NCBI GenBank assembly: GCA_002685655.1
Contig: NYXM01000033.1
Span: 1 to 34,621 of the forward strand
DNA length: 34,621 bases
Direction of reading: 5' to 3'
DNA from: Planctomycetaceae bacterium
GTDB lineage: Bacteria; Planctomycetota; Planctomycetia; Pirellulales; Pirellulaceae
Below, piece by piece: positions 5,245 through 27,950 of this stretch (positions within the stretch are counted from its first letter, which is position 1; each line of letters begins with the position of its first letter). The notes under the pieces were generated by a model that saw nothing but the letters and a program-made list of their open reading frames with translations, did not search any database and was not told the origin of the DNA. A program made the translations under genes and the position numbers.

Positions 5245-5252
5245 TCGACCCT

Positions 5253-7010: not shown

Positions 7011-7166
7011 AATGACGAATGACGAAACACCCAATGACGAAGGAATGAGGAAATCCGAAGCCCGAAGTAGTCAGCTAACATGGTACAGCTCTGATTTCGT
7101 TCCTGGCCGTTTTCGGCAATGGTCATTCGGGCTTCTTTCGTCATTCGTCTTTGGTCATTCGTCATT
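7011..7166. repeat. Degenerate inverted repeat built of GACGAAT units
   Basis: The left arm (7011-7066) is made of repeated AATGACGAA units ending in GAAGCCCGAA. The right arm (7126-7166) is the inverse, TTCGGGCTTC then TTTCGTCATTCG units ending GTCATT. Both arms carry internal short direct repeats and differ by small indels. It sits between manC and the hydrolase gene and makes artificial N-terminal extensions of reading frames in both directions. Confidence 0.75.
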
Positions 7167-7203
7167 TACGATACAGGTGAAACTCTAAAGTTGCGTCGTC
7201 TCC

Positions 7204-8277: not shown

Positions 8278-8293
8278 ACAAGCGGCCTCCCCG

Positions 8294-9956: not shown

Positions 9957-12900
9957 ATGAACGCTGGACAAAAAAGAGAACATGCGCCAAGCCAGGATTT
10001 TCCAGGAATCGTGCTGTCGTCTCGTGTCAATTCCGTGCGAATGCTCTTACCGGCGGCGTGTTGCCTGAGTACGCTATTCTTCGCGTTGATGTGCCCGTTG
10101 GCAACCGCTGACTGGCCGATGTACCGCAACAATGCAGGGCGCACCGGCTACACCGCCGCAACGCTGCCCAATCAGTTGGCGCTGCGGTGGTCCGTCAAGT
10201 CTGAGCATCGGCCGCAACCAGCCTGGCCGCGCAGCGATCGTATGCTGTTCGATCGTGCATTTCAGCCGGTTGTGGCGGGCGGGCGTCTATTCTACGGCGA
10301 TTCGGTCGACGGTTCCGTCACGGCACGTGATCTGAAGTCGGGTAAGTTGCTGTGGAAGTTCCACGCCGAAGGTCCGATTCGATTCGCACCCGCCGTGTGG
10401 CAAGATCGACTATTTGTCGCCAGCGACGATGGTCGACTGTACGCGTTGACAACGGAGACTGGCCGCCTGCTATGGAAACAACAGGGCGGACCTGATCAAC
10501 GTTCAATCTTGGGTAACGAACGACTCATTTCAAAATGGCCAGCGCGAGGCGGCCCTGTGGTGGTCGAAGACACCGTCCTGTTCGCAGCCGGGATTTGGCC
10601 CACCGACGGTATCTACTTGTACGCCTTGGATGCTCGCAACGGAGACGTCTTATGGAAGAACGATCAATCTGGAAGTATCTACATGCCGCAGCCTCATGGA
10701 GGTGCCAGCGCGGAGAGCGGAATCGCCGCGCAAGGATATCTGGCGGCGACGGCCGATCGTGTGTTCGTGCCGACCGGTCGAGCGGTACCGGCCACGTTTG
10801 ATCGACGTGACGGACAACTTGCATTCTTTCATCTGCAAAAGTACGGCCATAACGGCGGCGCCTCGATCATGGCAGCTGGCGATCAGTTCTTCAACGGTGG
10901 CCTGAGCTTCGATGCAGCATCCGGTTTCAGCGTCTCGAAACTCGGAGACGGGCAATTGGCGATTACTCCCAATGGCCTCGTCCGCAACGTTGGCGATTCG
11001 GTGATTGGATACAAATGGGTGGATGCGGAAAAGGCAGATCGCAAAGGCACTGTGGTCAAGACAAAGGCCCTTAAATCTGAATGGTCCGTCAAGGGCCGGG
11101 CTGACGCAACGGCGCTAGTGGTTGCTGAAGACCAGGTCGTCACTGGCGGCGCCGGCTACGTGCAAGTCGTTGACGCGAACGAACAGCGGATTGCCTGGAC
11201 TGCCGACGTGGCCGGCACGGCGTACGGCCTGGTTATCTCTGACGGCCGACTGCTGGTTAGTACTGATCTTGGCACGATCTACTGTTTTGACGCCAGCGGT
11301 GATCCCGTCGCCGACATTCACGATGATCGCAAAACAGCTGCCCTGGTCAACTCGGCCTATCAACAATTGGCTGAGGAGATTATCCGGCGCAGCGGCATAA
11401 CGCGCGGTTTCTGTCTCGATCTTGGCTGCGGCAATGGTCAACTCACAATGGCATTGGCCCAGCAAACCGAACTGCAGATCATTGCGGTTGACGACGACAT
11501 CGCTGCCGTCGCTCAGACACGCAATCAACTCGCCGCCGCCGGCTTGCTTGGCACACGTGTCACCGTGCACCATCGCGAACTTGCCGCCACGGGATATCCC
11601 AAGTACTTCGCCAACCTGCTTGTCTCGGGACGTTCTGTCATAGAGTCCGAAACCGTTTTGCCTGAGGAAGCAATGGGGCGGTTGTTGCGGCCGTACGGCG
11701 GCATTTCTTGCGTGGGCCCGCGCGACGCGTTGCAGGTTGTCACCCGTGGCGAGTTGGCCGGCGCGGGTTCGTGGACGCATCAGTACGCGAATCCCGCCAA
11801 CACGCTCAACAGCGAAGATGAATTGGTGCAGAGCGGGCTGACCATGCTGTGGTTTCGCGATGTCGATTTTGAAATTCCTCAACGGCACGGCCGTGCGCCG
11901 GCACCGTTGACCCATCGAGGACGGCTGTTTCATGAAGGTCTGGACGGACTGGTTGCGGTCGATGCTTATAACGGTCGCGAGCTGTGGCGGTACGACGTGC
12001 CCAACGTGCTGCGTGCATACGATGGCGATGAATTAATGGGTGTCGCGGGCACGGGCAGCAACTTCTGCTTGGACGACGAGAGTGTTTACGTGCGGCACGA
12101 ACAGCGCTGCTTGCGGTTGTCCGCCGATGAAGGGACGTTGCAACGCGAATTCCCCACGCCGCCACGAAAAAATGGTGGCCCCGGGACGTGGGGCTACATT
12201 GCGGTGGAAGCCGGAGTGTTATTCGGCTCGGTGGCCCAGCCCGACCACGTCGTAACTTACCGCTATCGCAATACTAGCGGCGACATGAGCAAACTGCTGA
12301 CGGAATCGGAGAGCTTCTTCGCCGTGGATTCGGAGACAGGTGACCTGATCTGGCGATACGACGCTCAACATTCCATTCGGCACAACAGCATCGCGATTGG
12401 CGACGGCCTTGTGTTCTTGATTGATCGGCCAGTCGCACTGCATGATCGCGAAAAGAAGCCCAAAACGAAAGAGCATCCTGTCGGTCGGCTGGTCTGCCTG
12501 GACGCCGCGACGGGCGTCGTCAAATGGCGCAACGATGACGATGTCTTTGGTACCGTGCTTGCCTTCAGTACCAGGCACGACGCGCTGCTGATGAGTTATC
12601 AGCCGACGCGTTTTCGCTTGGACTCCGAGATCGGAGGCCGAATCCGGGTGTATCGAGCGAGCACGGGTGAACCGATGTGGGAAGCCGAGGCCGACTACGC
12701 ATCGCGACCGATGATCAACAACCGCACGATCTACGCCCAAGGCGGTGCCTGGGACTTGCTGTCCGGCAAGCCGCAGCCCTTCCAGTTCAGCCGATCTTAC
12801 GGCTGCGGGATTCTGGCCGGCTCGCAAGACTTGCTACTGTTTCGCTCGGCGACACTTGGGTATTTCGATCTGAAGTCCAACGACAAGATCGCTAACTTCG

Positions 12901-13031
12901 GCGGAATGCGACCCGGCTGTTGGGTCAATGCGTTGCCGGCTGGCGGCATTGTGCTCGTCCCGGATGCGTCCGCCGGTTGTCGCTGTAGTTACTTGAACAA
13001 GGCCTGGGTCGCGCTGGATTCGCAACCGTAG
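9957..13031 (+). CDS. Exported PQQ-like beta-propeller protein with an internal methyltransferase-like domain
   Basis: A 1024-residue protein. A hydrophobic signal (MLLPAACCLSTLFFALMCPL) begins at residue 29, so ATG 10041 is an alternative start; 9957 has GAAGGA 11 nt upstream but gives a long n-region. From WPMYRNNAGRTGYTA onward, PQQ/pyrrolo-quinoline-type blades are seen (GKLLWKFHAEGPI, GRLLWKQQGG, GDVLWKNDQSGS). Residues 470-610 form a class-I SAM-methyltransferase-like domain: motif I LDLGCGNGQ at 487-495, the acidic end of strand 2 in IIAVDDDIAAV, then NLLVSGR and RPYGGISCVG. A second propeller follows (GRELWRYDVPNV, GDLIWRYDAQHS, GEPMWEAEADYA). No dehydrogenase acid/Cys motifs are obvious. 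Exporting a SAM-domain is odd, since SAM is cytoplasmic; the domain may be structural. The zincin-like gene 47 bp downstream is probably co-transcribed. Confidence 0.88.
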   Translation: MNAGQKREHAPSQDFPGIVLSSRVNSVRMLLPAACCLSTLFFALMCPLATADWPMYRNNAGRTGYTAATLPNQLALRWSVKSEHRPQPAWPRSDRMLFDRAFQPVVAGGRLFYGDSVDGSVTARDLKSGKLLWKFHAEGPIRFAPAVWQDRLFVASDDGRLYALTTETGRLLWKQQGGPDQRSILGNERLISKWPARGGPVVVEDTVLFAAGIWPTDGIYLYALDARNGDVLWKNDQSGSIYMPQPHGGASAESGIAAQGYLAATADRVFVPTGRAVPATFDRRDGQLAFFHLQKYGHNGGASIMAAGDQFFNGGLSFDAASGFSVSKLGDGQLAITPNGLVRNVGDSVIGYKWVDAEKADRKGTVVKTKALKSEWSVKGRADATALVVAEDQVVTGGAGYVQVVDANEQRIAWTADVAGTAYGLVISDGRLLVSTDLGTIYCFDASGDPVADIHDDRKTAALVNSAYQQLAEEIIRRSGITRGFCLDLGCGNGQLTMALAQQTELQIIAVDDDIAAVAQTRNQLAAAGLLGTRVTVHHRELAATGYPKYFANLLVSGRSVIESETVLPEEAMGRLLRPYGGISCVGPRDALQVVTRGELAGAGSWTHQYANPANTLNSEDELVQSGLTMLWFRDVDFEIPQRHGRAPAPLTHRGRLFHEGLDGLVAVDAYNGRELWRYDVPNVLRAYDGDELMGVAGTGSNFCLDDESVYVRHEQRCLRLSADEGTLQREFPTPPRKNGGPGTWGYIAVEAGVLFGSVAQPDHVVTYRYRNTSGDMSKLLTESESFFAVDSETGDLIWRYDAQHSIRHNSIAIGDGLVFLIDRPVALHDREKKPKTKEHPVGRLVCLDAATGVVKWRNDDDVFGTVLAFSTRHDALLMSYQPTRFRLDSEIGGRIRVYRASTGEPMWEAEADYASRPMINNRTIYAQGGAWDLLSGKPQPFQFSRSYGCGILAGSQDLLLFRSATLGYFDLKSNDKIANFGGMRPGCWVNALPAGGIVLVPDASAGCRCSYLNKAWVALDSQP

Positions 13032-14062: not shown

Positions 14063-17000
14063 TTATTGAGTCAGCTCGATGCCCAACTTCTCTTCCTCTT
14101 CTTCCTGAATGATGATGCGTGGAGTGACCATCAACATCAGGCTTTGCGATTCTCGCCCAATACCGACGTTCTTGAACAGGCGGTTGATGTAGGGCAGCTT
14201 GCTCAACACCGGCACTCCTTGCTCATTACGTCCTTCGCGAAGTCGCTTGATGCCACCCAACAACACGGTACCTCCGTCAGGCACGCTGACGGTGGTAGAG
14301 ACCGTGGTGAAGGCGAACGTCGGCAACTGTACCGTCGTTCCTGCGGTGGTGGTGGTTACGTTGTCCTGTGCCGTCGGATTACCGTCCGGGTCAACAACAT
14401 TGGACCCTGAATCGGTCGTTGTGGTTCCGTCAAAGGTGAACTCTTCCACCTCACCGATCTGGCTGAAGAAGGGCACCAAGGTGAGACGGACGAATCGACG
14501 ATCCGACGAGACGACCGCTTGCACGCTGAGCGATGTTCCTTCGCTGAGCACCACGATGACGGGTTGATGGGCGGCGGCAAAGTCCCCGACCACTGGAATC
14601 AAGCTCGTCACGAACGGTCGCTGTGACGTATCGCTGACCGACGCCTGTTGGCCGTTGAATAAGGTCACTTTGGGTGCTTGCAGCACGTTACTGCGCTGGT
14701 CACCCTGAGCGGCCTGGAGCACGAAGAACGCCTCGATATCGCTGAGGATCGCAAATCCGATACTGGCCGCACTGGCGGCATCGAAACCGCCGAACGCTGG
14801 CTGACTGGCCGCGAAACTCCCTTGATTGAACGAGATGTCCAAGTCGGCTGTGGGGATGCCGGTCGCATCCAAGCCGATGGTCACACTATTGCCCGAATCG
14901 TCTTGCGGCAATTGCGTGACGTTATCGTCGATGTCAAAGTCGAAATCTATGCCCATCTGCTCGAAGAAGTCATCACGCAGCGTGATGAAGCGAACCTCAA
15001 TCGTCACCTGCAAGTCTTGCAGTCGACGCAACTGCTCCAGCAAGTCGGCAATTTGATCGTGAACGTCCTGCGTTTGGCTGATGACCAAACTCAAGTTGGT
15101 GGGGAAGGACTCGATGGCACCCGGGCCACCGACGTCGTCCCACGTGTCCGGTGCGATCGTCGACGTAATCAATTCAATGAGCGTGTCAAAGTCCGCCAAG
15201 GCGGCTCCGCCCATGCTGCCATTGCCGTAGCCCAATGGCGTCGACGGTCGCGATCCGCTCCGTGATTGCAAGCCGAAGGAATTTGACTGCGCGAGCACCG
15301 ACGCGCTGGTCGACACACTACCTTGCAGGTCGGTGGGTGCGATCGTAAAGGGACCCATTGCCGAGGGGATTCCATCACCGTAGCCCAACGCGCGATGCGC
15401 CTCGCGAATCGCGGCAGGCAGGCCAACATTGTATCCCGGTACGAAATTGGGAATGGGAATCACCAGGTCCGCCACGTTGTAGACGTCCGTATACACATTG
15501 GCGTCACCCGATTGTTCGCTAGTGACGCGAAGCACTTCGTGTTGAATGACGTAGCTCAGCCGTAACGGCTCCAAGATTAGCTTCAAGGCACTTTGAAGTG
15601 AAACGGCTTCAGTCAAGTTGATCGTGATCGGTGTATCCGACGTCACACCTTCGGCACTGAGCCCTTGTGGATCGGCGTAGATGTTCACGTTCGACATGCT
15701 GCCCAGGTCATCGAGGACTTCCTTGAGCGGCCGGTTGGTAAACCTGACCTGCACCTGTTCTTTCAATGCAGCCTGAATCTTGATTTCCGTGGGTGACAGT
15801 TGACGGTGTTTCATTTCTCCACCGCGGTATGGGCTTTTGTTGAGCGCCATCCAGTTGTCCACGTTGCCGAAGTCGATCGGATTGTTATCGTCGAAGGGAG
15901 TTGCCGACGCGCCGACATTCGACAATGCGCGATACACGCCTTTCTCGTTGAGCTCAGCGATATTCTGCTGCTCGCGAATTCTGTAACCAAAACTAGCGTT
16001 GATCATCAGCGTGCGGGCGATCGGCGAATCCGGATCGAGCGCCCGAACTTGTTTGGCGCGAACCTCCGCTTCCTTCCATCGTTGCTCTTCGATCAGGTCG
16101 TTGTACTCTTCGACCAGTTGAGCGATCTTGTTTTGAGTTTCAGATTTGATCGCTTGATCGCGATCGATCGAGGCCAGGATCGCGGCGTTGCGATCGTCCT
16201 GTTCAATCTCGGACCGATGTTGATCGATGTAGGAACGAAACTGAATGGTCTTCCGATCGATTAAGGTCAGCAGCTGTTTTTGCGAACCGGGGCTCAAGTC
16301 AGACGCACCAACCTTGGCACGGATTTTCTCCATGCGTTCTAGTGCTGCGAATGGTTCCGCCTTCATCTGCTTGTCCGCGGCTTTCCCCTCAATGGAGAAT
16401 TCGCCATAGAGTTGTTGACGCAAGAGTTCCTGGGCGGTATCGACTTGCTCCAACGGCGAAGGTTCTCGACCGCTGGATACGATGTCTCGTGCAGAACTCA
16501 GCAGGCTGAGCTTGTCCGTGAGTTGCTGGCGCGTTGACGGATCAAGATCACTTTGGTGTTGCCAGGCTTCGCGAAAGAGCTGGAGGGCGCGACCGCGATC
16601 TTGACCTTCCAATGCGGCCATCCCTTGCTCGAATAGCTGACGTCCCAATGGCTGAACCGATGGTGGTCCCGCGGGCGTGGGAACACGGATTTGCGCCCGC
16701 ATGTTGCTGGATGGATCGGTGTTGGGATTGTAGATCCCTCGTTGCACGGGAAACCCAGCTGCCCGTTGGGGTAATGTAAACTTGCTGGCCGGTACGACAC
16801 CCTTCTGGCGTCGCTCGATCTCCATGAGGACTTGCCAGGGTCGCATTTCCTGTGGCCCGAAGGCCTCTTTGGGAACTTGCAATCGTTGTGCTTGTTCAGC
16901 CAGTCGCAAGGCTGAATCCAGTTCGCCTCGCAACAGTTGCTGTTGGGCCTGGAAGACAAGCTGCGAGGCGCGGTCTTTGGCTGGATGCGAAACGACGCGT

Positions 17001-17326
17001 CCACCAGCGAGCGGTCTGCCAGAGGAACTGAACGGCCGTGGCGCCGCGGCGACCGATGGCAGGCGACCAATTCCGTCTCGGCCAGCTGGAGCTGAGCCCA
17101 ACGGCGTAAAGCGGGCACTGGGAGGCGCAATGATCGGAGGCGCACTAGCCCCTGAAGTGACCGCCGGTGACGTGACCGGGTACCGGTCGCCGTCAGACGC
17201 CGTTTGACCGACTGATGCGGTCGCTTGTGCCAGCTGTGTTGTGAGAGGATGAGCCGTCGCCGGACTGGCCAACGCAAGCCCCAGGGATAGGGTGACAGTC
17301 AACGACAAATAGGCGATCGCTTTCAA
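14063..17326 (-). CDS. Secretin of a type IV pilus / type II secretion-like system
   Basis: A 1087-residue outer-membrane secretin. The start is TTG with AAGGAG 7 nt upstream. The signal peptide is MKAIAYLSLTVTLSLGLALA, cut near PATAHP. A Pro/Ser-rich stretch follows (about 30-110), then TPR-like helices (about 110-450: LLRGELDSALRLAEQAQ, GMAALEGQDRGRALQLFREA). An N0/STN-like domain is at about 515-600 (RFTNRPLKEVLDDLGSMSNV), then an N-domain with SLVISQTQDVHDQIADLLEQ. The secretin core runs from about 840 and contains VSVPDGGTVLLGGIKR and GVPVLSKLPYINRLFKN, the family signature, ending LMVTPRIIIQEEEE. It should form the outer-membrane pore for the PilM/PilO-like proteins encoded upstream. 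It is nearer Amuc_1098/PilQ-like systems than a classic GspD locus (inference). Confidence 0.92.
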   Translation of the reverse strand: MKAIAYLSLTVTLSLGLALASPATAHPLTTQLAQATASVGQTASDGDRYPVTSPAVTSGASAPPIIAPPSARFTPLGSAPAGRDGIGRLPSVAAAPRPFSSSGRPLAGGRVVSHPAKDRASQLVFQAQQQLLRGELDSALRLAEQAQRLQVPKEAFGPQEMRPWQVLMEIERRQKGVVPASKFTLPQRAAGFPVQRGIYNPNTDPSSNMRAQIRVPTPAGPPSVQPLGRQLFEQGMAALEGQDRGRALQLFREAWQHQSDLDPSTRQQLTDKLSLLSSARDIVSSGREPSPLEQVDTAQELLRQQLYGEFSIEGKAADKQMKAEPFAALERMEKIRAKVGASDLSPGSQKQLLTLIDRKTIQFRSYIDQHRSEIEQDDRNAAILASIDRDQAIKSETQNKIAQLVEEYNDLIEEQRWKEAEVRAKQVRALDPDSPIARTLMINASFGYRIREQQNIAELNEKGVYRALSNVGASATPFDDNNPIDFGNVDNWMALNKSPYRGGEMKHRQLSPTEIKIQAALKEQVQVRFTNRPLKEVLDDLGSMSNVNIYADPQGLSAEGVTSDTPITINLTEAVSLQSALKLILEPLRLSYVIQHEVLRVTSEQSGDANVYTDVYNVADLVIPIPNFVPGYNVGLPAAIREAHRALGYGDGIPSAMGPFTIAPTDLQGSVSTSASVLAQSNSFGLQSRSGSRPSTPLGYGNGSMGGAALADFDTLIELITSTIAPDTWDDVGGPGAIESFPTNLSLVISQTQDVHDQIADLLEQLRRLQDLQVTIEVRFITLRDDFFEQMGIDFDFDIDDNVTQLPQDDSGNSVTIGLDATGIPTADLDISFNQGSFAASQPAFGGFDAASAASIGFAILSDIEAFFVLQAAQGDQRSNVLQAPKVTLFNGQQASVSDTSQRPFVTSLIPVVGDFAAAHQPVIVVLSEGTSLSVQAVVSSDRRFVRLTLVPFFSQIGEVEEFTFDGTTTTDSGSNVVDPDGNPTAQDNVTTTTAGTTVQLPTFAFTTVSTTVSVPDGGTVLLGGIKRLREGRNEQGVPVLSKLPYINRLFKNVGIGRESQSLMLMVTPRIIIQEEEEEKLGIELTQ

Positions 17327-17525
17327 CGCGATTCTCCTTCTTTGAGGTGCTTCGAATCGAAGAGGCCAAGTTTCAACTTCTGATACGCTGCTTCATTCTT
17401 GTCGTTTGCGTTCGCGAGAATTCGCGTCTAAGCAACTCAAAGACAAGCGTTGACGTACCACAACAGTCAGTGACCACCGCGATTTGACAACCGTGACAGG
17501 GTTTTCTCCGTAGATGAGAGCGGGA

Positions 17526-17554
17526 TAAATACTGGCAGTCCAGACGACCGTCAA
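17526..17554 (-). promoter_or_regulatory. Candidate sigma-70 promoter of the secretin gene
   Basis: On the minus strand TTGACG (17554-17549) and TATTTA (17531-17526) are separated by 17 nt. It starts a few bases past the terminator hairpin. The predicted leader to the TTG start is about 190 nt. The -35 is good and the -10 only fair. Confidence 0.38.
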
Positions 17555-17565
17555 GGTCACTTTGT

Positions 17566-17605
17566 CAAGAAAAAGAAAACAGCCACTGTTTTGCAGTGGC
17601 TGTTT
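17566..17605 (-). terminator. Intrinsic terminator of the pilM-like operon
   Basis: AAACAGCCACTG (minus strand, 17605-17594) pairs perfectly over 12 bp with CAGTGGCTGTTT (17588-17577) around a 5-nt loop. On the minus strand the stem is followed by TTTCTTTTTCTT. This is a textbook rho-independent terminator, 57 nt after the TAG of the second Gly/Met-rich gene. Confidence 0.88.
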
Positions 17606-17661
17606 GAATCCAAAAGCATTTTGATACGACCGTTAGAGCAGTCGTTTCACTGGGACTGGTG

Positions 17662-20124
17662 CTATTCGTCGTCGCTACCGCCTCGACCCCTGCGGCCTCT
17701 ACCACGGCCACCCTCACCGTCGTCACCACCTTCGTCGCCTTCACCATAGCCACCTTCACCATAGCCTCCCATGCCCTCCATATCTCCCATGCCCTCGCCG
17801 TCGCCGAGGCCGCCGAACATCGAGTCGTCGGTGGCGGCGGGTACCGGTGGCAATCGTTTCTTGAACCCGTCCCAGTCGTCCAATTCGTTCTTGACAAAGA
17901 ATTCACCCTTCTCGTTCAAGAATAAGAATTCGGCAGGCGAGAAAAGCGGATTGTCTTCTTGCTCGTCCTTGGGAACAGGTAGCGGCCTGCCACCGATGAA
18001 GTCCAAGACCATGCGATTGGTCTTAAAAGGATACTCCTTGATCGTCTTGTACTGAAGTGAAACTGGATGCACCACATCCGCGTCCAGATCGAAGTTCAGA
18101 AAGGTGCCGCGATGGGCGTCCACCAAACCAGGAACTTCGATGGCGCGTTTTGCGTCCCAAACGACCGACATGACTTTTGCAGATCGTTCGACGGCCATCA
18201 GGTCGAATTGGTTACCAAACGAATCGTTGATCACCTTTGGTTTTTCCATCGAGATTTCACCACCCAGCGTTTGGTTGCTGGGTCCGAACGAAACAACAGC
18301 ACTCGGTTCGCTGAACTCTGTCACGCGAAAATAAGATAAACGGCTCTTTGCTGCAGCTTCCTTGGCCTTGACGTCCGTGATACGAGTTCGGACGGCCGTG
18401 GAAAGTGCTCGCACATTCGGTTCGGCGAGAGGATTCTTGGGATGATTCGGGTCTTCCACCCAGAGCTGGATGCGATAGCGGTATTTCTTGGTCGTGTCTT
18501 TGATGGAAAGGTCAAAGAAGCGAACCATCAGATATTCGACGGTGGGGCCAAATGTGGGGATGCCGCCCATGCCATCGCCCATGCCGCCATACCCGCCATA
18601 CCCGCCGCTACCTTCCTCGCCATATCCACCCATTCCTTCCATGCCAGACGCACCCATGCCAGGTGCACCCATACCAGGTGCACCCATGCCAGACGCACCC
18701 AAACCAGGTGCACCCATACCAGGTGCACCCATACCAGGTGCACCCATGCCAGGTGCACCCATGCCAGGTGCACCCATGCCAGGCGCACCCATGCCATATC
18801 CATTCATACCTTGCATACCAGAGGTACCTTCACCGCTGAAACCCGCCTGCAAACCAGGACCACCGGTCAGCGACGGGCCGCTGTTGATACCCTGTGGCTC
18901 GTCTGAATCCTCAGGTGCGTCTTGTGCGTCATCCGTGTCGGGAATTTGTGGCGCGACCTGATATCGAGGAATCTTGCTGTGAATGGCAATATCATCGTAC
19001 GACTTCGACACAATTGGCGGTATAGGCATCGTCAGTATGCCGGGCATAACGTACCGTGGATCCGCGATTTCCGCGGGAAACCCTGCCCATCCGCCATAGG
19101 GTCGTCGCCTATCGTTCATCTGTTTCACAACAAATTCGGAGGTCGAAATCGCCTTCCATTCAAATTCCGTTTCGGTTTCGTCTTTAACTTCGGCGCGTTC
19201 CGCGTAGAAGCCCAAGTACGTTGGCACATCGCGCGACCTGGTGTAGCCCATGGCATTGGATAATTTGACATCGAATTCGTCCCACTGCTTCTTGTACGGA
19301 ATTCTCGCGGTCACACCAACCACGTGTCTCGTGATAACAAGCGCGCCGGATTGTGGTCGATAACCTTCGATGTTCGCTGGGTCCGCCATGCCCGCCACAC
19401 CGCCACCTCCTCCATATCCGCCCATTCCAGATCCGCCCATTGCAGATCCGCCTGGCATGGCACCGAGCATACTGCCTTCGTCACCTTCATCGTCCATCCC
19501 TCCGAATTCGCCAAGTCCGCCAAGAGCACCGGAACCTGAGCCCATTCCGGGAATGCCGCCATCCTCATCACCGTAGCCACCTAAGCCACCATAGGGATCA
19601 TTCTTGTCACGCTTCTTGCGCTTTTTTCGTTTCTTTTTGACCTCTTTCGCTTTCTTTGGCTCCATGATCTCATCGTCTTTGAGCGGATCCACTTCGCCTC
19701 GAACCGGCACATAGGCGACGGGGCCGTTCGACATCGCCACAGCTTCAATGTCCATCGGCGGATAGAGATCCGGATCCGTACGTTTTCGCCCTGACGGCTT
19801 TTGCGGGCCAGGATACACTGGGGCCGGATAGCCAATAGCGTTGATCGGTGCCTGGCCGGCGGTGGTTCGTTGAACGAACTCGGTCGGTCGTTCGTTCTCC
19901 GCCACGATCGTCGGAACGGGCAGCGGATCTGTGATGAATTTCTTGACTTCAACCGCCTTCGTCCTCAAAACGTCAGGACGCTTGTCACTGGCCAGGCCTT
20001 CGAGGCGTGAGCCTCGGTAGACAAACAAAACCAGTACCAAAACGACGACGCCGAGTACAATCTTCTCGACGTGCAGGGAAAAGAATCGCTTAAAAGCGTC
20101 TTTGTCTAAGCCAAGTTTCGCCAT
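17662..20124 (-). CDS. Large Gly/Met-rich single-pass membrane protein of the secretin locus
   Basis: An 820-residue protein. A short cytoplasmic head is followed by one membrane helix at residues 21-37 (KIVLGVVVLVLVLFVYRG). Next come a Pro-rich region, a Lys/Arg cluster at about 152-172 (KKRKKRKKRDK), a Gly-rich stretch to about 260, and a folded alpha/beta region to about 410. Residues about 443-492 are ten tandem pentapeptides of GMGAP type, followed by more Gly-rich sequence. A second folded region (about 535-770) precedes a C-terminal acidic Gly-rich tail. The start has GAGGAG 9 nt upstream. It occupies the place between the PilO-like gene and the secretin, as PilP (or Amuc_1099) does elsewhere, so a periplasmic connector to the secretin is the best guess. 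I do not recognise a named family. Confidence 0.8.
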   Translation of the reverse strand: MAKLGLDKDAFKRFFSLHVEKIVLGVVVLVLVLFVYRGSRLEGLASDKRPDVLRTKAVEVKKFITDPLPVPTIVAENERPTEFVQRTTAGQAPINAIGYPAPVYPGPQKPSGRKRTDPDLYPPMDIEAVAMSNGPVAYVPVRGEVDPLKDDEIMEPKKAKEVKKKRKKRKKRDKNDPYGGLGGYGDEDGGIPGMGSGSGALGGLGEFGGMDDEGDEGSMLGAMPGGSAMGGSGMGGYGGGGGVAGMADPANIEGYRPQSGALVITRHVVGVTARIPYKKQWDEFDVKLSNAMGYTRSRDVPTYLGFYAERAEVKDETETEFEWKAISTSEFVVKQMNDRRRPYGGWAGFPAEIADPRYVMPGILTMPIPPIVSKSYDDIAIHSKIPRYQVAPQIPDTDDAQDAPEDSDEPQGINSGPSLTGGPGLQAGFSGEGTSGMQGMNGYGMGAPGMGAPGMGAPGMGAPGMGAPGMGAPGLGASGMGAPGMGAPGMGASGMEGMGGYGEEGSGGYGGYGGMGDGMGGIPTFGPTVEYLMVRFFDLSIKDTTKKYRYRIQLWVEDPNHPKNPLAEPNVRALSTAVRTRITDVKAKEAAAKSRLSYFRVTEFSEPSAVVSFGPSNQTLGGEISMEKPKVINDSFGNQFDLMAVERSAKVMSVVWDAKRAIEVPGLVDAHRGTFLNFDLDADVVHPVSLQYKTIKEYPFKTNRMVLDFIGGRPLPVPKDEQEDNPLFSPAEFLFLNEKGEFFVKNELDDWDGFKKRLPPVPAATDDSMFGGLGDGEGMGDMEGMGGYGEGGYGEGDEGGDDGEGGRGRGRRGRGGSDDE
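18646..18795. repeat. Tandem repeat, ten 15-bp units
   Basis: Ten consecutive copies of a 15-bp unit, aggtgcacccatgcc with variants at three positions (agacgc, aggcgc, ataccn). They lie wholly inside the coding region and encode GMGAP/GMGAS/GLGAS pentapeptides. Because the unit is a multiple of three, copy-number change by slippage would keep the frame. Confidence 0.95.
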
Positions 20125-20177
20125 CGTGTGGCTCCTCGTGTCGTTGCGAGGTACGTCCTCGATTTTGTCTTTTTCGC

Positions 20178-20199
20178 ACGCCGTCGTTCCTAACGGCGT
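20178..20199 (-). other. Hairpin in the leader of the Gly-rich gene
   Basis: ACGCCGT (20199-20193 on the minus strand) pairs with ACGGCGT (20184-20178) around an 8-nt loop. It begins right after the predicted transcription start of the -10 element at 20208-20216. No T-tract follows, so it is more likely to stabilise or regulate the mRNA than to end it. Confidence 0.4.
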
Positions 20200-20207
20200 A
20201 CGAATTC

Positions 20208-20232
20208 AGTATAGCAGTTCGACCCTTGTCAA
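20208..20232 (-). promoter_or_regulatory. Candidate internal promoter with extended -10
   Basis: The minus strand carries TGCTATACT (20216-20208), a strong extended -10 (TGnTATAAT type). A TTGACA (20232-20227) lies upstream, but only 13 nt away, too short for a normal -35, so the extended -10 would have to carry the activity. It sits in the 152-bp gap between the PilO-like gene and the Gly-rich gene. Confidence 0.42.
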
Positions 20233-20276
20233 GCAGGCTCAGATCGCCCGATTCGTTGGTTTTTACTCATGTGCTC

Positions 20277-22277
20277 TTAGCCACCAGCCTGCGCAGGCTG
20301 ATTCAATTGGTCGCCAATTTCCGGGTCTGCTCCTCCAGCCGCCGCTCCAGCTCCAGGAGCAGCGTCTGCCGGTGTCGTTGCGTCGGTCGCAGGTGGTGCA
20401 CTGGTATCATCGACCGGTGCTGTGGGCGTTGTCGTGCTGCCTTCCAGATCCGTATCCGCCGTGACCTGACTTGTCGCCTCTTGTAAACGCAGGCTAATCG
20501 GATTGTAGATGTACACCATTCCGTAGATTTCGACAGGCAGATCGTAGGGTGAAACGTCACTAAACGCGCCGCTGCTTCCATCACCGCCCTCGTAACCACC
20601 GGGACCTTCTCCCATCCCGCTTCCCATTCCGAACGAACTTCCCTCGCCGGCCGCTCCTTCATCGCCGAAGCCGGCACCAAGACCGCCACCAAGGCCGCCA
20701 CCAAGGCCACCGCCAAGACTCCCACCCATTCCACCAGACATCATTCCCCCGCTCATTCCGCCGCCCATTCCGCCAGGATATGAACCTCCCATGCCCCCAA
20801 TCATGCCGCCATTACCGCTGGAACCACTACCGATTCTGTTAACGCGCACCTGCCGAACTTCAACCACTAAGTTCGAGCTTCCACAAGCTGCGATAAAATT
20901 GTGCAGTTTGCGCTGATCAATGACCATACCCATCCGAATGGGAATCCGTTTGGCGACCACCAGGAAGGCGTTCGCAGGTGCTGGGTTTTCTGACTCCATC
21001 ACCTCGCGCAATCGACTGGCGGCGATTGGAACATAGTTGTTGTCGACGTATCGGTTGTGTGCCGGATCGTTGCTTGCGACCGCCATCGCCCCGCCTTCGC
21101 CAAGCATACCAGAGCCTTCCATACCAGAGCCTTCCATACCAGAGCCGTCCATGCCAGAGCCTTCCATCCCGCCGGTTTCACCATCCATGCCAGCACCGCC
21201 CATCGCGCTGGCTCCTGACCCCATGCCTGATTCACCGTAGCCTTCCATCCCGCTGCCGGGTCCTCCCATCCCGTCCATCATTCCAAGCCCGCCTTCGCCA
21301 CCGGTGCCACCGGCAGCAGCTTGAAGACGCTGCACGCGGCTGGTTGTAGGTCCAACTTCTCGTCCCATCTGGATATATTTGATTTCCTTGACCGTCGCGT
21401 TGTAACGCGCCGTTGCGCCCTGGTTCGTGGTGGCCACAATTCGCATCAAGGCTTGCATGACCCAGAGATTCTCTTGGGCGTACAGAATGTCCAAAGTCCC
21501 AGGTTTTCCGCCAGGCAATCTTCTCCAATCAAACCTCATACTTTGCAATCGCGTTTGGTCCGATGGATCCCATGTGACGATCGCCGTTGAAACAGCACCT
21601 AAACCTGTGCCTGGTAAACCAGACTGACCGCCCATCCCACCGCCAAAAACTCCGCTCGCGCCGCTGCCAAAACCACCATCGCTGCCACCGCCATAACCAC
21701 CTTCGGTGTCACCACCAAAACCACCTTCGCCAAGACCACCTTCCATGCCACTGCCCCGCATGCCTTCACCACCACCTCCGGCCCCCGAAGGCAACCAATC
21801 GGCACCGATGATCTGGGCTAGTTTTGGCAGTTCTTCCTGGATGTAATTTCGATAAAGTTCGCGAAATTGGACATCGATTTCGTTGGTCGGATCGTTGGGG
21901 GCGTATTTCAGTTTCTCGATCGGACGATACTCGTCCACTTGAGCAATGAACTCGTCCCCCAGCTCTTCAGGCCAGACAAGGAATTTGCGTTGCTGCTCGT
22001 ATTGAATCTTCCATGCAGCCACGACTTCCGCGATGATCTCTTTTTCTAATTTCTCCAACCCTTGCTGGGATAGAGAATTGGGATGAGCGGGTGTTTTCCT
22101 AATGGCAGTGTCGATGCTAAAAGCTTTATCGATCCGACTTTTCCCTTGCTTGGTGGCATCGTTCATGCCGGAGGTGGTGACAAACCAACCGCCCAACAGC
22201 AACGGCACCATGATGCTACAGACGACCCAAAACCAGTGCTTGACGAGTTTTGATAAAATCAGCTTGACTTGATCCAC
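20277..22277 (-). CDS. Gly/Met-rich single-pass membrane protein at the PilO position (Amuc_1100-like)
   Basis: A 666-residue protein. The GTG start lies 2 nt past the TAA of the pilM-like gene, with GGAAGGGAG just upstream, so translation is coupled. A membrane helix spans about residues 15-33 (WFWVVCSIMVPLLLGGWFV) with a long helical region after it, as in PilO/Amuc_1100 proteins. Gly-rich segments (about 165-225, 325-395, 465-575) separate folded pieces, among them ALMRIVATTNQGATARYNAT and PANAFLVVAKRIPIRMGMVI. Tandem 15-bp units (GSGME type) lie at 21106-21165 and 12-bp units (GGGL) near 20680-20716. The C-terminus is Ala/Pro/Thr-rich. Expected role: inner-membrane alignment subunit joining the PilM-N fusion to the secretin. 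The PilO assignment rests on topology and gene order, not on clear motifs. Confidence 0.75.
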   Translation of the reverse strand: MDQVKLILSKLVKHWFWVVCSIMVPLLLGGWFVTTSGMNDATKQGKSRIDKAFSIDTAIRKTPAHPNSLSQQGLEKLEKEIIAEVVAAWKIQYEQQRKFLVWPEELGDEFIAQVDEYRPIEKLKYAPNDPTNEIDVQFRELYRNYIQEELPKLAQIIGADWLPSGAGGGGEGMRGSGMEGGLGEGGFGGDTEGGYGGGSDGGFGSGASGVFGGGMGGQSGLPGTGLGAVSTAIVTWDPSDQTRLQSMRFDWRRLPGGKPGTLDILYAQENLWVMQALMRIVATTNQGATARYNATVKEIKYIQMGREVGPTTSRVQRLQAAAGGTGGEGGLGMMDGMGGPGSGMEGYGESGMGSGASAMGGAGMDGETGGMEGSGMDGSGMEGSGMEGSGMLGEGGAMAVASNDPAHNRYVDNNYVPIAASRLREVMESENPAPANAFLVVAKRIPIRMGMVIDQRKLHNFIAACGSSNLVVEVRQVRVNRIGSGSSGNGGMIGGMGGSYPGGMGGGMSGGMMSGGMGGSLGGGLGGGLGGGLGAGFGDEGAAGEGSSFGMGSGMGEGPGGYEGGDGSSGAFSDVSPYDLPVEIYGMVYIYNPISLRLQEATSQVTADTDLEGSTTTPTAPVDDTSAPPATDATTPADAAPGAGAAAGGADPEIGDQLNQPAQAGG
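21106..21165. repeat. Tandem repeat, four 15-bp units
   Basis: Four adjacent copies of ataccagagccttcc, with single-base variants in the last two, lie inside the PilO-position gene and encode GMEGS/GMDGS pentapeptides. They are frame-neutral on expansion or contraction. Confidence 0.9.
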
Positions 22278-22279
22278 AA

Positions 22280-24706
22280 TTAGCTCCCTTCCTCAGTTTC
22301 GGATGCATCCCCTGCTGCGGGTGTTGCTGGATCACTTCCAGCCTGTTCGGCGGCTGCCTTTGCGGCGTCGGCTGCTGCCTTTTGCAACGCTTTTTCCCGA
22401 TCCTCGCGCTCTTGAACGCGAGTGGTCAAGCGGTTTTCCTGCCACACAAACTGGACCGTGAACGAGTGTTTTTTGACGGAAAAGAACTGGGGTTCCACCT
22501 CTGCGCCCTCGGCTGCCGGGCCACCCGGTCCGGCTGGACCACTACCGGCAAGTGATCCGGGTCCGGCAAGACCGCCTGGCGCTCCACCAAGCGCGCCCGG
22601 CGCATCACCGAATTCACCAGACGCTCCACCAAACCCACCCTCGCCCAAACCACCATTGGTACCGCCTGTGGTTGGGGCAAAATCAGGATTGGGGACTGGC
22701 GTCAATACTGGCTGACCGCTTTCTACGGCTAGGATGGGAAAGCCGATTCCCAGCTCTTTCATTGTGAACTCCGTCTGCGTTCCCGTTCCATCGCTCTTAT
22801 TTGGAAGAACAACGCTACCTCGCTCGAGTTCTTTCAGCAGGGTGCTTCGTACGTGCACGGCACCTCCCAAGCTGAGCGACTTGTTGAAGTAATGGTAGCC
22901 TTGGATTTCGATGATCCAGCCAGGGCCTGTGGGGCCAGGCAAGTCGAGTCCAGCGCCACCCGAATCTGCCCCGTCTTGCTCGTCCAACGTGCCTAGCTCG
23001 TCCAACATGTCTGACGAATCACTGTCACCTGTCTCTACCCCGGCAACGTCGTTGTCGCCGACCACCGGTTCGGCGATTGGAAATCTCTTCTTGAGAAACG
23101 CCATCAGCTCGTAGTTCTTTACCTGCACCTGATTGTTGGCCCACCATGTGGACAGATCGGGGAAGTACTCGGACTCGATATGATCGATGTAAAGCTCTCG
23201 CCGCTCGTCCAACGCCGTGTCTTTATGGCTTACGTACTCGCCAACCGGCATGTCTTGCGTAACGGGAAGGGCGGCGGTGATCGCCTTCATGAGCTCCAGC
23301 CATTGAATGCGACGGTCACCTGATCCGACAACTTCTTCGCCAACCTGGGTCATGAATTCCAGTTTGGCGACCTGGTTCTGATGCTCGGCTTTAAATCCAT
23401 CACTAGTTGTCTTGTGGCCTGCCATTTCGGCTTCCGCAGCTTCCCAAGTTACGCCGTTCGTGGCAGCGTTTTCCTGGACCTCGGACCAAACGCTGTACGT
23501 GAACACGAAGCTGAATGCACACGCCAGCATCAACGTGCTGAGCGAAGCAATGGCCCACGGTTTCTTCGCCCGCACGATCCTTGCCGTAGTAATCTCACGA
23601 GGCAAGAGGCTCGTCAGCAATCGGGCTTTCTTCAGCCCCTGCAAACACAATCCGTAGCTCACACCGAAGGCCAGAACGTTGTCTGTAAAAGCCGGTGAGG
23701 AGACGACTGACGGACCACCCAACAAGTTGTATTTCTCGAACTCAATGACTTCGTAGCCAAGGTTCTTTGCCACATACTGCTGGAGCCCCGGCAGCTTGAC
23801 CGTATTACCCAATAGGACCACACCACGAATCTTCGCCTTGCGATCAATTCCTTGGAAAAAGCCGATCGATCGCTGAACCTCGGTCACCAAATCGTTGAAG
23901 ATCGGGCGCATGGCTTGGAACACCGCCTTAGGGTCTTCCGCCTGACGCGCGTTTCGTTTGAGATGTTCGGCCTTGGCAAATGTCAGCTTGAGTTCCTTGG
24001 TAAGCTGTTTGGTGAAATGGTTACCGCCGAGCGGGATACTGCGTTGCCAGACACGAAAACCATTCGTAATCACCAAGTCCGTCGCGTCGGTTCCCATCGC
24101 CAGGATGACGATGGATTCGGGGGGCTCGTCCGGGTCGAATTCATCGGGATCGGGACCATCCGAAAGAATGTCGTACGAAACGAAATTGTAGATTGACAAC
24201 GGCGCCAACTGGACGATGTCCAATTCGATCTCGGCCTTGTCAAACGGCTGCAAATAGCGATAGACCTGCTCGCGTTTCATAGCGAACAAGCCAACCTCGG
24301 TATCAATGGCAAAACCATCAACTTCCGTGCCACCGGCCATCTGTTGGAAATCCCAGATGACCTCTTCCAGCGCAAAGGGAATCTGTTGTTTCGCTTCGTA
24401 TTGAACGATGTCCGGAATCCGTTTGACATCGACTGGCGGTGGCTTGAAGAACTTGGCGAGGCCGCTTTGGCCAGGCACCGAAATCGCGACCTTCGCGTCA
24501 ACGACCTCGTTCCGCGACAGAAACTGTTCCAGTGCCTCCTGAACGAGGGCCTCGGGATCAGCTTCGGGCTGGCTGAGAATCTTGGGATATTCGATGTAAT
24601 CGAATGCATCCGCGACAACCTGGCCATCTTCTTCCACGCACCGCAACGCCTTCAGGCCACATTGTCCTATGTCGATTCCCCAAACGTAATTTGGCTTTTT
24701 TGCCAT
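22280..24706 (-). CDS. pilM: PilM-like ATPase fused to a PilN-like membrane domain
   Basis: An 808-residue protein, far longer than a lone PilM (about 350). The N-terminal half is an actin-fold PilM/FtsA-like ATPase: phosphate-1 loop YVWGIDIGQCGLKALRCV at residues 8-25, phosphate-2 ILAMGTDATDLVI, and adenosine motif VVLLGNTVKLPGLQQYV. Near residue 367, LTSLLPREITTAR recalls the NLLP motif by which PilN binds PilM. A membrane helix follows (PWAIASLSTLMLACAFSFVF), then a periplasmic coiled-coil/alpha-beta region as in PilN, and a Gly/Pro/Ala-rich C-terminal part (about 680-740) with an Ala-rich charged tail. AGAGGA lies 8 nt before the ATG. It is the first gene of the operon, coupled to the PilO-position gene. 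It would recruit or align the pilus/secretion machinery at the inner membrane. Confidence 0.87.
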   Translation of the reverse strand: MAKKPNYVWGIDIGQCGLKALRCVEEDGQVVADAFDYIEYPKILSQPEADPEALVQEALEQFLSRNEVVDAKVAISVPGQSGLAKFFKPPPVDVKRIPDIVQYEAKQQIPFALEEVIWDFQQMAGGTEVDGFAIDTEVGLFAMKREQVYRYLQPFDKAEIELDIVQLAPLSIYNFVSYDILSDGPDPDEFDPDEPPESIVILAMGTDATDLVITNGFRVWQRSIPLGGNHFTKQLTKELKLTFAKAEHLKRNARQAEDPKAVFQAMRPIFNDLVTEVQRSIGFFQGIDRKAKIRGVVLLGNTVKLPGLQQYVAKNLGYEVIEFEKYNLLGGPSVVSSPAFTDNVLAFGVSYGLCLQGLKKARLLTSLLPREITTARIVRAKKPWAIASLSTLMLACAFSFVFTYSVWSEVQENAATNGVTWEAAEAEMAGHKTTSDGFKAEHQNQVAKLEFMTQVGEEVVGSGDRRIQWLELMKAITAALPVTQDMPVGEYVSHKDTALDERRELYIDHIESEYFPDLSTWWANNQVQVKNYELMAFLKKRFPIAEPVVGDNDVAGVETGDSDSSDMLDELGTLDEQDGADSGGAGLDLPGPTGPGWIIEIQGYHYFNKSLSLGGAVHVRSTLLKELERGSVVLPNKSDGTGTQTEFTMKELGIGFPILAVESGQPVLTPVPNPDFAPTTGGTNGGLGEGGFGGASGEFGDAPGALGGAPGGLAGPGSLAGSGPAGPGGPAAEGAEVEPQFFSVKKHSFTVQFVWQENRLTTRVQEREDREKALQKAAADAAKAAAEQAGSDPATPAAGDASETEEGS

Positions 24707-25055
24707 AAGTCAGTTCCTCTGCCGGAGAATTGCAGTCCGTACGCTCGGAACGATAATCAGTGATCACCGCCTACCGCGTTACGGGTCGGGTTTTTGAATT
24801 GCTGTAATGTCAAACGGCGCACAGATTTGGTGCCGCAAACCCCTGCTATCATTAATTCATCCTACTGACGCCGGTTTGCGATTGTCAACTAATTACTGGC
24901 CGCGAGTTTACAGATTTCCACCCATTGGTGGCGGCGATTCGTGTCTGAACCGGCCCAAATTTTGACCGCCAGCGGTCGACGCACCTCAATTCCGGAGCTA
25001 TCGTGGAGGGCCCGATGCCACCTCTCAGAATAGATCCCGATCGGCGCCAAGCAGC
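24707..25055. other. Divergent intergenic region between pilM and the GH38-like gene
   Basis: No coding region is visible. It carries the pilM-side promoter (24859-24888). I see no good promoter or Shine-Dalgarno for the rightward gene. Confidence 0.55.
24859..24888 (-). promoter_or_regulatory. Candidate sigma-70 promoter of the pilM-like operon
   Basis: On the minus strand a perfect TTGACA (24888-24883) and TAGGAT (24864-24859) are spaced by 18 nt. The predicted leader is about 145 nt. It is the best housekeeping-type promoter match I see in the window. Confidence 0.55.
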
Positions 25056-27950
25056 ATGAAATTCCAAGAACTTGTAATTCTTCTGCCGTGCCACAGCCTC
25101 GAAGACTTTCCGCATCACCATGAAGGGGATGAAGCGGCTGGGCTCTTGGCCGCCTGGACCTCCCTTTGGCATCCCGCCCTGGTCGCTTCGGCAAACGCGG
25201 CTCCCACTTGGTCCCGGGTGGACGACACACCCGAAAACCTGGCTGATCGACTGCTGATTGTCCCTTCGGTCAGCGAGAACGAACTGCCCACAGGCTTCGT
25301 TCAGCGGGCTCAAAGTGAGGGCGCCTGCTTGATTCGCAACCAAACTGACCGAGCTCGCATTGTCGCTGCGGCCCTCGAGCAGCTTGATGGCGGAGATCGG
25401 GGCATCGACTCGGAACTCGCCGCGGACTTCCACGCTTTGGGTTACGGTTTCCTGCAGATCCAGTTGCTTACCCGACAAATGAGGTATTCGAGCAACCTTG
25501 ACGAATACCATTTCAATACACAACTCGTTGCTGGGGCACAGGCTGCGGCCAGCGGCGACGCTGCTTTGGCAGGTGAGAAACTGACCGCTTGCTTCGATCT
25601 GTTGGGCGAAGAACGTGATCATTTTTACTCAGTGGACGCTTTCTTGATCGACATCACGATGGTCGAATCCTCCACGTTGGGCGAATCGATGCGTACCAGC
25701 ATTGACAGTGCGACACCCAGCAATTTCATGATCCGCGGCGAACTGCTAGATCATTTGGCCGAGCACTCGCCGGAGACCATGCAGGCTCTGTCGGCGGCGG
25801 TGGCGGCGGGTAGCGCAGGGTTGATTGGTGGCGAAGACATCGAGTCACGGTTGCCGTTGCTTTCGCAAGAATCGGTGCTCAGCACACTTCGTCGCGGCGG
25901 GCAGCGCTATGTCGAGCGGCTCGACCACCGGCCAACCGTTTTTGGACGACGCCGTTTTGGCCTGACGCCTTGCTTGCCCCAAATCCTCAGCAAGTTCGGG
26001 TTTGCCGGGGCGTTTCATGTCACATTGGATGATGGTCGATTCCCACAAGGCGCGCAGATCAAGACCCGGTGGGAGGGCACCGACGGATCGGCAATTGATT
26101 CAATCGCCAAAGTGCCCCTCGATGCGACCAAGCCAGAAACATTCTTGGGATTAGCGCAAAAGCTCGGCGAATCGATGGATATGGATCATGTCGCGTCGAT
26201 TTGCCTGGCCCACTGGCCCGGGCAGGACAGCGACTGGTTCGAAGACCTCAAACGATGCGCCAAATATGGATCGGCATTGGGAAAATTCGCCACCGTTGAG
26301 GCCTATTTTCGCGATACTTACATGCCAGGACAGTTGGATCGATTCGAGGCAAGTCAGTACCGCTCGCCCTACCTCAAGCAAAGCGTCATTCGTCGTCAGG
26401 CGGATCCGATTTCAGCGATTCAGCGTTATTGGCGAAGGCGTTTCACCTGGGACGCCGCGAGCAACCTGCGAGCTCTGTCGCACTTGATCACCGGCGACTC
26501 GTCTGGCATTCGTGACGACCTGGAAGCGTCGATCGATCGACTCGCGGAACCGCCTCAAGCGGTTGCCCAAGACCCCTCGGACGCGGACGCAAAGCAGAGC
26601 GACTCGCCGGCCGCAGATCCGGTCGACGACAAGCTCGAAGACTCGCTTACCCATGCCCTCCAACAATTTGCCGAAAGTCTACCGCCGCAGGACACGCCAC
26701 CGGAGAAGGGCTATCTGATCGCCAATCCGCTGAATCACGCCCGCCGCATGTTGATTGATATCAGCGAATTGGATCGGCTACCCGAAGCCGCCAAGCCGGT
26801 CTATGCCGTCGGCGAAGCGGATGGTTGCAAGCTGGCGGTGGTCGACGTGCCGTCGATGGGATTCGCGTGGCTGGCGGCGTCGGCAACGCAGCGGACCGCC
26901 AAGCAGACGAATCCAGCCATGGCCGAAGAAAGCGATGGCGCGTTACTGCTCCGCAACGATTTCTTTGAAGCGAGTATCAATCCGACGACTGGCGCGCTGC
27001 AATCGATGCAGGATTACCAGACGCGTGGCAATCGTATTTCCTATCAGTTGGCGTTGCGGTGCTCTGGTCCACAGCAACGACCAGGCGAGGCGGGGTGCGA
27101 TGCTGATGAGGCTGCCGTTTATTCGGTCATGGTGGCTGAGTCCGTTGATCTGCACTGCGTGCCTGGTACGCGCGGTGAAATCCTGGTGCGCGGAAAACTA
27201 GTCGATCGTAATGGCCAGCTGCTGTCCCATTTTTCTCAAACATATCGAGCTGTGCGGGGCAGTCGCGTGCTGGAGCTGGAAATCGAACTGGACCCGCAAA
27301 ACGAACCTGCAGCCGATCCGTGGAGTTCATATTATGCTGCCCGGTTTGCCTGGAAAGACGAAGGGGCCGAGCTGTTCTATGATTGCCAACAGACTCGACA
27401 TCCTGTCAGCCAAAAGCACATCGAGGCCTGTCAGTTCATTGAAATCGATACCGGCGACTCACGAACAACGCTGTTGACCGGCGGGCTCCCGTATCACCGT
27501 CGGGCCGGTCATCGGATGCTGGATAGTCTGTTGGTCGTCCGAGGTGAACGAGCACGAACATTCCGCCTGGGAATTGGTGTCGAGCTGGCCAATCCAGTCA
27601 ATGATGCGGTCTCGCTGATATCGCCCACGCTGTCGATTCTCCGCACTGTTGCACCTCCCGCACCGGCGACGAGCAGCTGGTTGTTTCACTTTGACGCCAA
27701 AAGCTTGTTGGCCACACACTGGGAAGCGCTGTGCGAAGAAGGGCGGATCGTCGGTTTTCGTGTCCGGGTTCTGGAAACAAGTGGCAAGGCGACTCGCGCA
27801 AAGCTGCGTAGCTTTCGACCGGCTGTCGCCGCCAAACACATTGACTTTGTGGGCGAGACAATCGGCGACCTTCAGGTTGAAAATGGCATTGTCTGTTTGG
27901 AGATGACGGGCCACGAATGGGTGGAAGTCGAGGCGCGTTTCAGCACATGA
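25056..27950 (+). CDS. Divergent GH38-like (alpha-mannosidase-fold) protein
   Basis: A 964-residue protein with no signal peptide. The overall plan resembles glycoside hydrolase family 38: an N-terminal barrel-like region beginning at a His-rich strand (LVILLPCHSLEDFPHHHEGD), then FGLTPCLPQILSKFGFAGAF near 300-320. A charged linker near 490-540 is followed by a beta-rich C-terminal half, with NDFFEASINPTTGALQSMQD at about 632, like the conserved GH38 C-terminal strand. The usual GH38 HsHxDpgW motif is not present in that form, so activity on mannosides is doubtful. It starts a rightward run with cmk 23 bp downstream. I see no strong Shine-Dalgarno; ATG 25056 was chosen because the first strand of the fold starts there. 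Function unknown, possibly glycan-related. Confidence 0.72.
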   Translation: MKFQELVILLPCHSLEDFPHHHEGDEAAGLLAAWTSLWHPALVASANAAPTWSRVDDTPENLADRLLIVPSVSENELPTGFVQRAQSEGACLIRNQTDRARIVAAALEQLDGGDRGIDSELAADFHALGYGFLQIQLLTRQMRYSSNLDEYHFNTQLVAGAQAAASGDAALAGEKLTACFDLLGEERDHFYSVDAFLIDITMVESSTLGESMRTSIDSATPSNFMIRGELLDHLAEHSPETMQALSAAVAAGSAGLIGGEDIESRLPLLSQESVLSTLRRGGQRYVERLDHRPTVFGRRRFGLTPCLPQILSKFGFAGAFHVTLDDGRFPQGAQIKTRWEGTDGSAIDSIAKVPLDATKPETFLGLAQKLGESMDMDHVASICLAHWPGQDSDWFEDLKRCAKYGSALGKFATVEAYFRDTYMPGQLDRFEASQYRSPYLKQSVIRRQADPISAIQRYWRRRFTWDAASNLRALSHLITGDSSGIRDDLEASIDRLAEPPQAVAQDPSDADAKQSDSPAADPVDDKLEDSLTHALQQFAESLPPQDTPPEKGYLIANPLNHARRMLIDISELDRLPEAAKPVYAVGEADGCKLAVVDVPSMGFAWLAASATQRTAKQTNPAMAEESDGALLLRNDFFEASINPTTGALQSMQDYQTRGNRISYQLALRCSGPQQRPGEAGCDADEAAVYSVMVAESVDLHCVPGTRGEILVRGKLVDRNGQLLSHFSQTYRAVRGSRVLELEIELDPQNEPAADPWSSYYAARFAWKDEGAELFYDCQQTRHPVSQKHIEACQFIEIDTGDSRTTLLTGGLPYHRRAGHRMLDSLLVVRGERARTFRLGIGVELANPVNDAVSLISPTLSILRTVAPPAPATSSWLFHFDAKSLLATHWEALCEEGRIVGFRVRVLETSGKATRAKLRSFRPAVAAKHIDFVGETIGDLQVENGIVCLEMTGHEWVEVEARFST

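Follow-up and report, generated by a model that had tools for sequence, protein, structure and literature searches.

A planctomycete PilM- and secretin-type gene set with co-varying Gly/Met-rich stretches, a candidate base for a type IV pilus-type machine

The DNA analyzed here, called the window, is a stretch of 34,621 nucleotides from a Planctomycetaceae bacterium (contig NYXM01000033.1 of assembly GCA_002685655.1). Four genes on its minus strand, named A to D, encode a PilM-type protein, two Gly/Met-rich proteins and a secretin. An original prediction, made from the sequence, had described them as a pilus- or secretion-like envelope locus, and all four genes were confirmed in the order it gave. 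The genes, their domains and the putative transcription signals are listed below (aa, amino acids).

Genes and protein families at the locus

24859..24888, minus strand: promoter-like site TTGACA-N18-TAGGAT upstream of A, a consensus match only
24706..22280, minus strand: gene A, 808 aa, PilM-PilN-like fusion
23627..24706, minus strand: PilM (actin-like) half of A, residues 1-360, from the PilM_2 match and the homolog profile
22277..20277, minus strand: gene B, 666 aa, putative Amuc_1100/PilO-class protein
20124..17662, minus strand: gene C, 820 aa, a single N-terminal hydrophobic segment and beta-rich domains
19609..19638, minus strand: Lys/Arg cluster of C, read from the sequence
17577..17605, minus strand: terminator-like hairpin between C and D, 12-bp stem and T-rich tail
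17326..14063, minus strand: gene D, 1087 aa, TTG start; secretin with a hydrophobic N-terminus and a long TPR-like N-terminal part
14111..14710, minus strand: secretin domain of D, residues 873-1072 (Pfam Secretin)

Genes A and B are separated by 2 bases. Because the hairpin lies between C and D and a good ribosome-binding sequence, AAGGAGAA, stands just upstream of the TTG start of D, D is probably transcribed separately from A-B-C. The hairpin had the longest stem of the 12 terminator-like sites in the scan, compared to 11.4 expected in shuffles, and a single promoter-like site was found compared to 4.9 expected. The locus had been predicted to span 14063..24888. Position 14063 is the end of D, but 24888 is the first base of the promoter-like site and no gene end.

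Family scans were performed with Pfam and NCBIfam; Pfam was run on 17 open reading frames (ORFs) of the window, the 220-aa ORF at 27971 and smaller ORFs being left out. Residues 10-356 of A matched PilM_2 over the cut-off (Pfam, expectation value (E) 1.1e-28), which supports the PilM part of the predicted fusion. In NCBIfam, A scored 125.6 bits with TIGR01175, below the curated 133, and 162 bits (E 2e-47) with Amuc_1101_fam (NF045709), far under the curated 650. Among 7999 candidates scored, 5876 were homologs of A at E ≤ 1e-10. The second half of A contains a hydrophobic segment at 385 and conserved blocks, and no match to the PilN family was found there in either database. One strongly hydrophobic segment each was present in B (16) and C (17), as expected from their description as single-pass proteins. 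The segments of all three proteins are taken for membrane helices.

Neither B nor C matched any Pfam or NCBIfam family at E ≤ 1. The predicted fold of B was the Amuc_1100 fold, as at the second position of the Amuc_1098-1102 type. By this model, B would be a planctomycete counterpart of Amuc_1100, a protein widely of interest in Akkermansia. GspM families gave two weak matches, T2SSM_b in 1 of 49 B relatives (E 0.054) and T2SS_GspM for the B protein of a further locus, L131 (0.056). A PilP-type kinship of C was not shown, PilP not being recognised in this protein. The Lys/Arg cluster predicted for it, KKKRKKRKKR, starts at residue 163, and a comparable cluster was present in 10 of 43 aligned rows, window counted.

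D matched Secretin over the cut-off (Pfam, E 4e-24). It scored alike with the NCBIfam models of GspD (2.2e-27) and PilQ (8.9e-27), the PilQ score being below its curated cut-off, and reached 5e-17 with the Amuc_1098 model. The secretin assignment of the original prediction was thereby upheld. For the TPR-like N-terminal part, TPR matched D of the window at E 0.024 only, and TPR_2 matched 5 of 14 D-family members.

Gene order and motor genes in relatives

A profile of A from 21 homologs found 520 relatives in GTDB species genomes, and the best 80 of the 520 were used as loci. Where the sequence continued for 2.3 kb or more beyond A, B came next in all 59 loci, at a gap of -139 to 151 bases; where it continued for 5.2 kb or more, B and C came next in all 56 loci, although the models of B and C were built from many of the same loci (48 and 42), so that their recognition is not independent. 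A first pass with the single B and C sequences of the window detected 56 B and 54 C ORFs, counts in which C was in two pieces at two loci and one B was a 132-aa fragment. D was found within 9 kb of A in 12 of the 49 loci with at least 9.5 kb and was not found in the other 37.

A search for A in 148 Planctomycetota genomes gave a match in 125 at E ≤ 1e-10; many weak matches, with frames of 350-460 aa, are probably ordinary PilM. Twenty further regions were hand-picked from these matches. B and C were recognised in 11/11 of one group (L113-L123). In a second group (L124-L128), the C model matched in 5/5 and the B model in 0/5; an ORF of 403-482 aa took the place of B in four, and the genes of L126 were masked by the ORF caller. 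B only was recognised at L129. At L130, D was the sole gene recognised, and the two ORFs between A and D matched no model; the ORF at the C position (5140-7140, minus strand) carried DKDGNG-like runs resembling EF-hands and a weak match to the calcium-binding effector XopAW (0.002). At L131, B, C and D all matched the window-family models, and at L132 D matched, C was weak in one test (1e-4) and below threshold in the other, and B gave no match. The A-B-C order is conserved across relatives and, with the matched PilM and secretin domains, bears out the idea of a conserved pilus/secretion-type unit.

The predicted absence of PilB, PilT, PilC and pilins held for the 17 window ORFs scanned with Pfam, none of which matched such a family. 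Likewise, motor genes gave 0 matches in 2214 ORFs flanking 100 related loci, in a search that found 6/6 clusters used as positive control. However, all ten named relatives carried a trio of T2SSE-type genes, long-short-long, within 5 kb and away from A-B-C. In the six clusters opened (L133-L138), five further conserved genes followed the ATPase trio, including a PilC-type gene in 6/6, and a prepilin-like motif was present in 24/24 positions when G, A or R was allowed at -1 and the first 120 residues were searched. The names were checked by family models in L134 only, where the order was PilB type, PilT (over cut-off), PilB type, PilC/GspF type and four prepilin-like genes. Three of these four matched TIGR02532 over the cut-off, and the fourth matched only PilV at 0.0015.

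The claim of a machine without motor or pilin was not supported, since relatives carry motor and prepilin clusters at other loci. For this reason, the lack of motor genes near A-B-C is read as dispersal, which presumably applies to the organism of the window too. T2SSE matches numbered 8-17 per genome in the ten relatives, and we infer that the motor-cluster ATPases are the ones paired with A-B-C. DUF1559, whose members we take to bear prepilin-type N-termini, had 41-108 matches per genome, the counts in G006 and G008 meaning at least that many.

Each of the ten relatives had one strong D ortholog, away from both A-B-C and the motor cluster. A second family, with frames of 1321-1622 aa, occurred in 9 of the 10 genomes (G001-G010) and matched the TPR-like part of D (E 6e-24 to 4e-35). 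Most of its members also matched a short segment of D around residues 915-975, and it is possibly a second secretin.

The motor clusters showed an unusual doubling, with two PilB-type ATPases flanking the PilT-type one in 6/6. In L134, the PilB types (6596-8350 and 10113-11831, plus strand) had an N-terminal match to the MshE-type cyclic di-GMP-binding domain, at 46.2 bits in one, compared to a cut-off of 38, and 34.2 in the other, which hints at cyclic di-GMP control.

Gly/Met-rich stretches and their coupling

The striking part of this system is a set of machine-specific, co-varying disordered stretches, located as follows. The fractions are alignment rows with Gly+Met of at least 0.3.

22496..22681, minus strand: Gly-rich insert of A, second half of the protein, residues 676-737, by composition (13/19 rows with at least 15 residues there, of 21 rows)
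21582..21791, minus strand: B disordered stretch 1, residues 163-232, joining the helical part to the core domain (28/49)
21066..21359, minus strand: B disordered insert, residues 307-404, from core strand 1 to the short helices before strand 2 (38/49)
20535..20837, minus strand: B disordered insert, residues 481-581, between core strands 3 and 4 (41/49)
19378..19644, minus strand: C stretch 1, residues 161-249 (32/43)
18544..18966, minus strand: C stretch 2, residues 387-527 (35/43)
18639-18796, minus strand: GMGAP tandem array in C stretch 2, a 15-bp DNA repeat

The Gly/Met-rich parts predicted for both middle proteins were confirmed. Whole-protein Gly and Met fractions were 0.207 and 0.054 in B and 0.162 and 0.048 in C. 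C contains ten GMGAP-like units, encoded by 10.5 copies of the 15-bp repeat, and its tail is also Gly/Met-rich, with Gly+Met of at least 0.3 in 21 of 30 tails with at least 15 residues. None of the counted folded parts reached 0.3.

A 60-aa segment with Gly+Met of at least 0.4 was found in B (49/59), C (49/58), A (13/72) and D (1/11), where an ORF matched by two queries was counted twice. It was found in none of 440 other flanking ORFs of at least 200 aa. These came from a greedy ORF caller, so the set may include spurious frames, and it contains at least one C that went unrecognised (in L062). The stretches are specific to the machine proteins, beyond chance.

Coupling between the proteins was measured by independent contrasts on the A tree, built from 528 columns and 42 loci with the window among them, and by 5000 permutations. 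Gly+Met contrasts of B loops and C loops were correlated (r 0.77, p 0.0002, the permutation floor), and the value was 0.76 with guanine-cytosine (GC) content removed and 0.72 when the two largest contrasts were dropped. The coupling was weaker by rank (0.46). A inserts correlated with B loops at 0.58 (rank 0.25) and with C loops at 0.57 (rank 0.28). In contrast, folded B compared to folded C gave 0.06, B loops compared to folded C 0.00, folded B compared to C loops 0.24, and flanking proteins (40 tips) 0.23 with B loops and 0.17 with C loops. Because the B and C loops covary while the folded, cross and flanking controls do not, the result speaks for a pressure common to the loops of the partner proteins, though it may also reflect a general trend that disordered regions follow in some lineages.

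Near-neutral repeat-slippage expansion in tolerant loops, giving stretches with no role of their own, is possible, if somewhat doubtful. Several stretches are encoded by DNA tandem repeats of 12-24 bp, the length and sequence of the stretches vary widely, the bias is absent at four loci, and the Gly/Met content of B tracks GC (raw rho 0.57, contrasts 0.48), all as such expansion would have it. However, slippage fits poorly with the absence of such stretches from the flanking ORFs and with a B-C coupling that hardly changed with GC removed and exceeded every control. If selection acts on the loops, their coupling offers a way to test for selection that targets composition and not sequence.

In the compact systems L131 and L132, the A-B-C-D order is the same, B has 301-303 aa and C 266-269 aa, Gly+Met is 0.05-0.08 in both, and the stretches are lacking. 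At L128 (5391-10942, minus strand), from a distant lineage, GMGMPGM-type runs were observed in the A- and C-position proteins. Since that lineage has them, the stretches may have been gained once or more often.

Proposed function and alternatives

A-B-C and D likely serve a type IV pilus-type machine as its base and secretin. A-B-C would form one operon for its inner-membrane alignment subcomplex, and D would be the separately transcribed outer-membrane secretin. The cytoplasmic PilM part of A would connect to the PilB/PilT motor, and the second half of A, in the PilN position, would rise from the inner membrane with B and C and lead to D. A filament of prepilin-type subunits would be pushed through D and, given PilT, pulled back; the motor genes (PilB-PilT-PilB2-PilC) and the four prepilin-like proteins would be encoded elsewhere. 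We infer the assembly into one machine, extension and retraction, and the periplasmic placement.

Several points weigh against this assignment: comparison rows of B with the PilO fold were middling, further PilM_2 matches were found in 6 of 10 genomes, the run of four prepilin-like genes behind PilC is reminiscent of GspG-H-I-J, and the top match of the first prepilin of L134 was GspG, at 1.8e-10 and under the cut-off. The last two also favor a type II secretion-like base, in which the four prepilin-like proteins would form a short pseudopilus pumping enzymes through D, with PilT acting elsewhere or as a regulator. In L134, the PilB and GspE models gave the ATPases similar scores, as did the PilC and GspF models for the PilC-type protein (1e-108 and 1.9e-107), none over an equivalog cut-off. 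The ten-gene locus Plim_0410-0401 of P. limnophila is called secretion-related, and in the accessible part of the text it is not called essential (PMC10632474); that it is the same cluster is a guess. Such a base is doubtful, and its probability overlaps with that of a pilus, the parts being the same. A pilus is favored because the motor cluster includes a PilT-type gene, as judged from the family model in L134 and from size and position in 10/10, and because A is a PilM-type protein, whereas a secretion role stays open because of the GspG-like prepilin and the likeness of D to both GspD and PilQ.

The original proposal, a trans-envelope machine specific to this lineage and lacking both motor and pilin, is highly improbable: no motor gene was found in the scanned window ORFs or the flanks of the 100 related loci, but relatives carry motor and prepilin-like clusters, and Gly-rich parts spanning a wide periplasm fit B poorly, two of its three stretches lying inside one Amuc_1100-like domain with both ends held, a misfit less certain for C.

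Within the type IV pilus-type machine, the Gly/Met disordered stretches of A, B and C would project into the periplasm as a shared flexible collar round the filament path. That they form a soft, compositionally tuned collar and disordered periplasmic gate, with subunits co-evolving in composition but not sequence, is a tentative and rather unlikely proposal. The flexible gasket suggested originally is possible, and gains indirect support because loop composition is coupled. Disordered stretches inside a pilus/secretion scaffold, evolving in composition in step between partners, would be an unusual case.

The gene order follows that of Amuc_1101-1100-1099-1098, taken by locus number from the available text (PMC5332112), as predicted. 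Compared to Amuc_1098-1102 of Akkermansia muciniphila, B and C of the window carry Gly/Met-rich stretches, C has no assigned family, and D was not found within 9 kb in 37/49 loci. Unlike PilMNOP and PilQ of type IVa pili (Myxococcus, Thermus, Pseudomonas), the window has a fused PilM, no recognised PilP, long disordered stretches and a secretin with a TPR-like extension, and genes of this type are split over three places in ten relatives. What sets the system apart from GspL-GspM-GspD of type II secretion is the PilM-type protein and, in the motor cluster of relatives, an ATPase of the PilT type; GspC was not recognised.

A literature search covering few subscription journals gave, among the titles listed, none on these genes in planctomycetes, and among the matches listed, no gene set assigned to planctomycete surface fibres or crater-like pits. 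A possible link is already in print, the available part of one article comparing crater-like structures with the type IV pilus machine (PMC8303584). Three putative pilQ genes of P. limnophila, which may or may not include the D ortholog, were deleted and dispensable according to the available text (PMC11958385). Pili genes of Singulisphaera rise on chitin, in a list that, as far as available, is dominated by Tad genes (PMC11279305). For the fibres and pits, the genes A-B-C and D together with the motor-prepilin cluster are a concrete candidate set, which can be deleted in culturable strains.

Two other genes of the window were noted. The PQQ/BamB-type beta-propeller protein at 9957-13031 (plus strand) appears to carry a methyltransferase-like domain, with a Methyltransf_25 match (2e-7, residues 487-557) amid its repeats; the 80 related loci had no homolog of it among their ORFs. 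A GH38-like gene (Glyco_hydro_38N, 2.2e-6) at 25056-27950 (plus strand) is divergent to A, and of the 64 loci with upstream room and A called, 58 had a homolog placed divergently in the same way.
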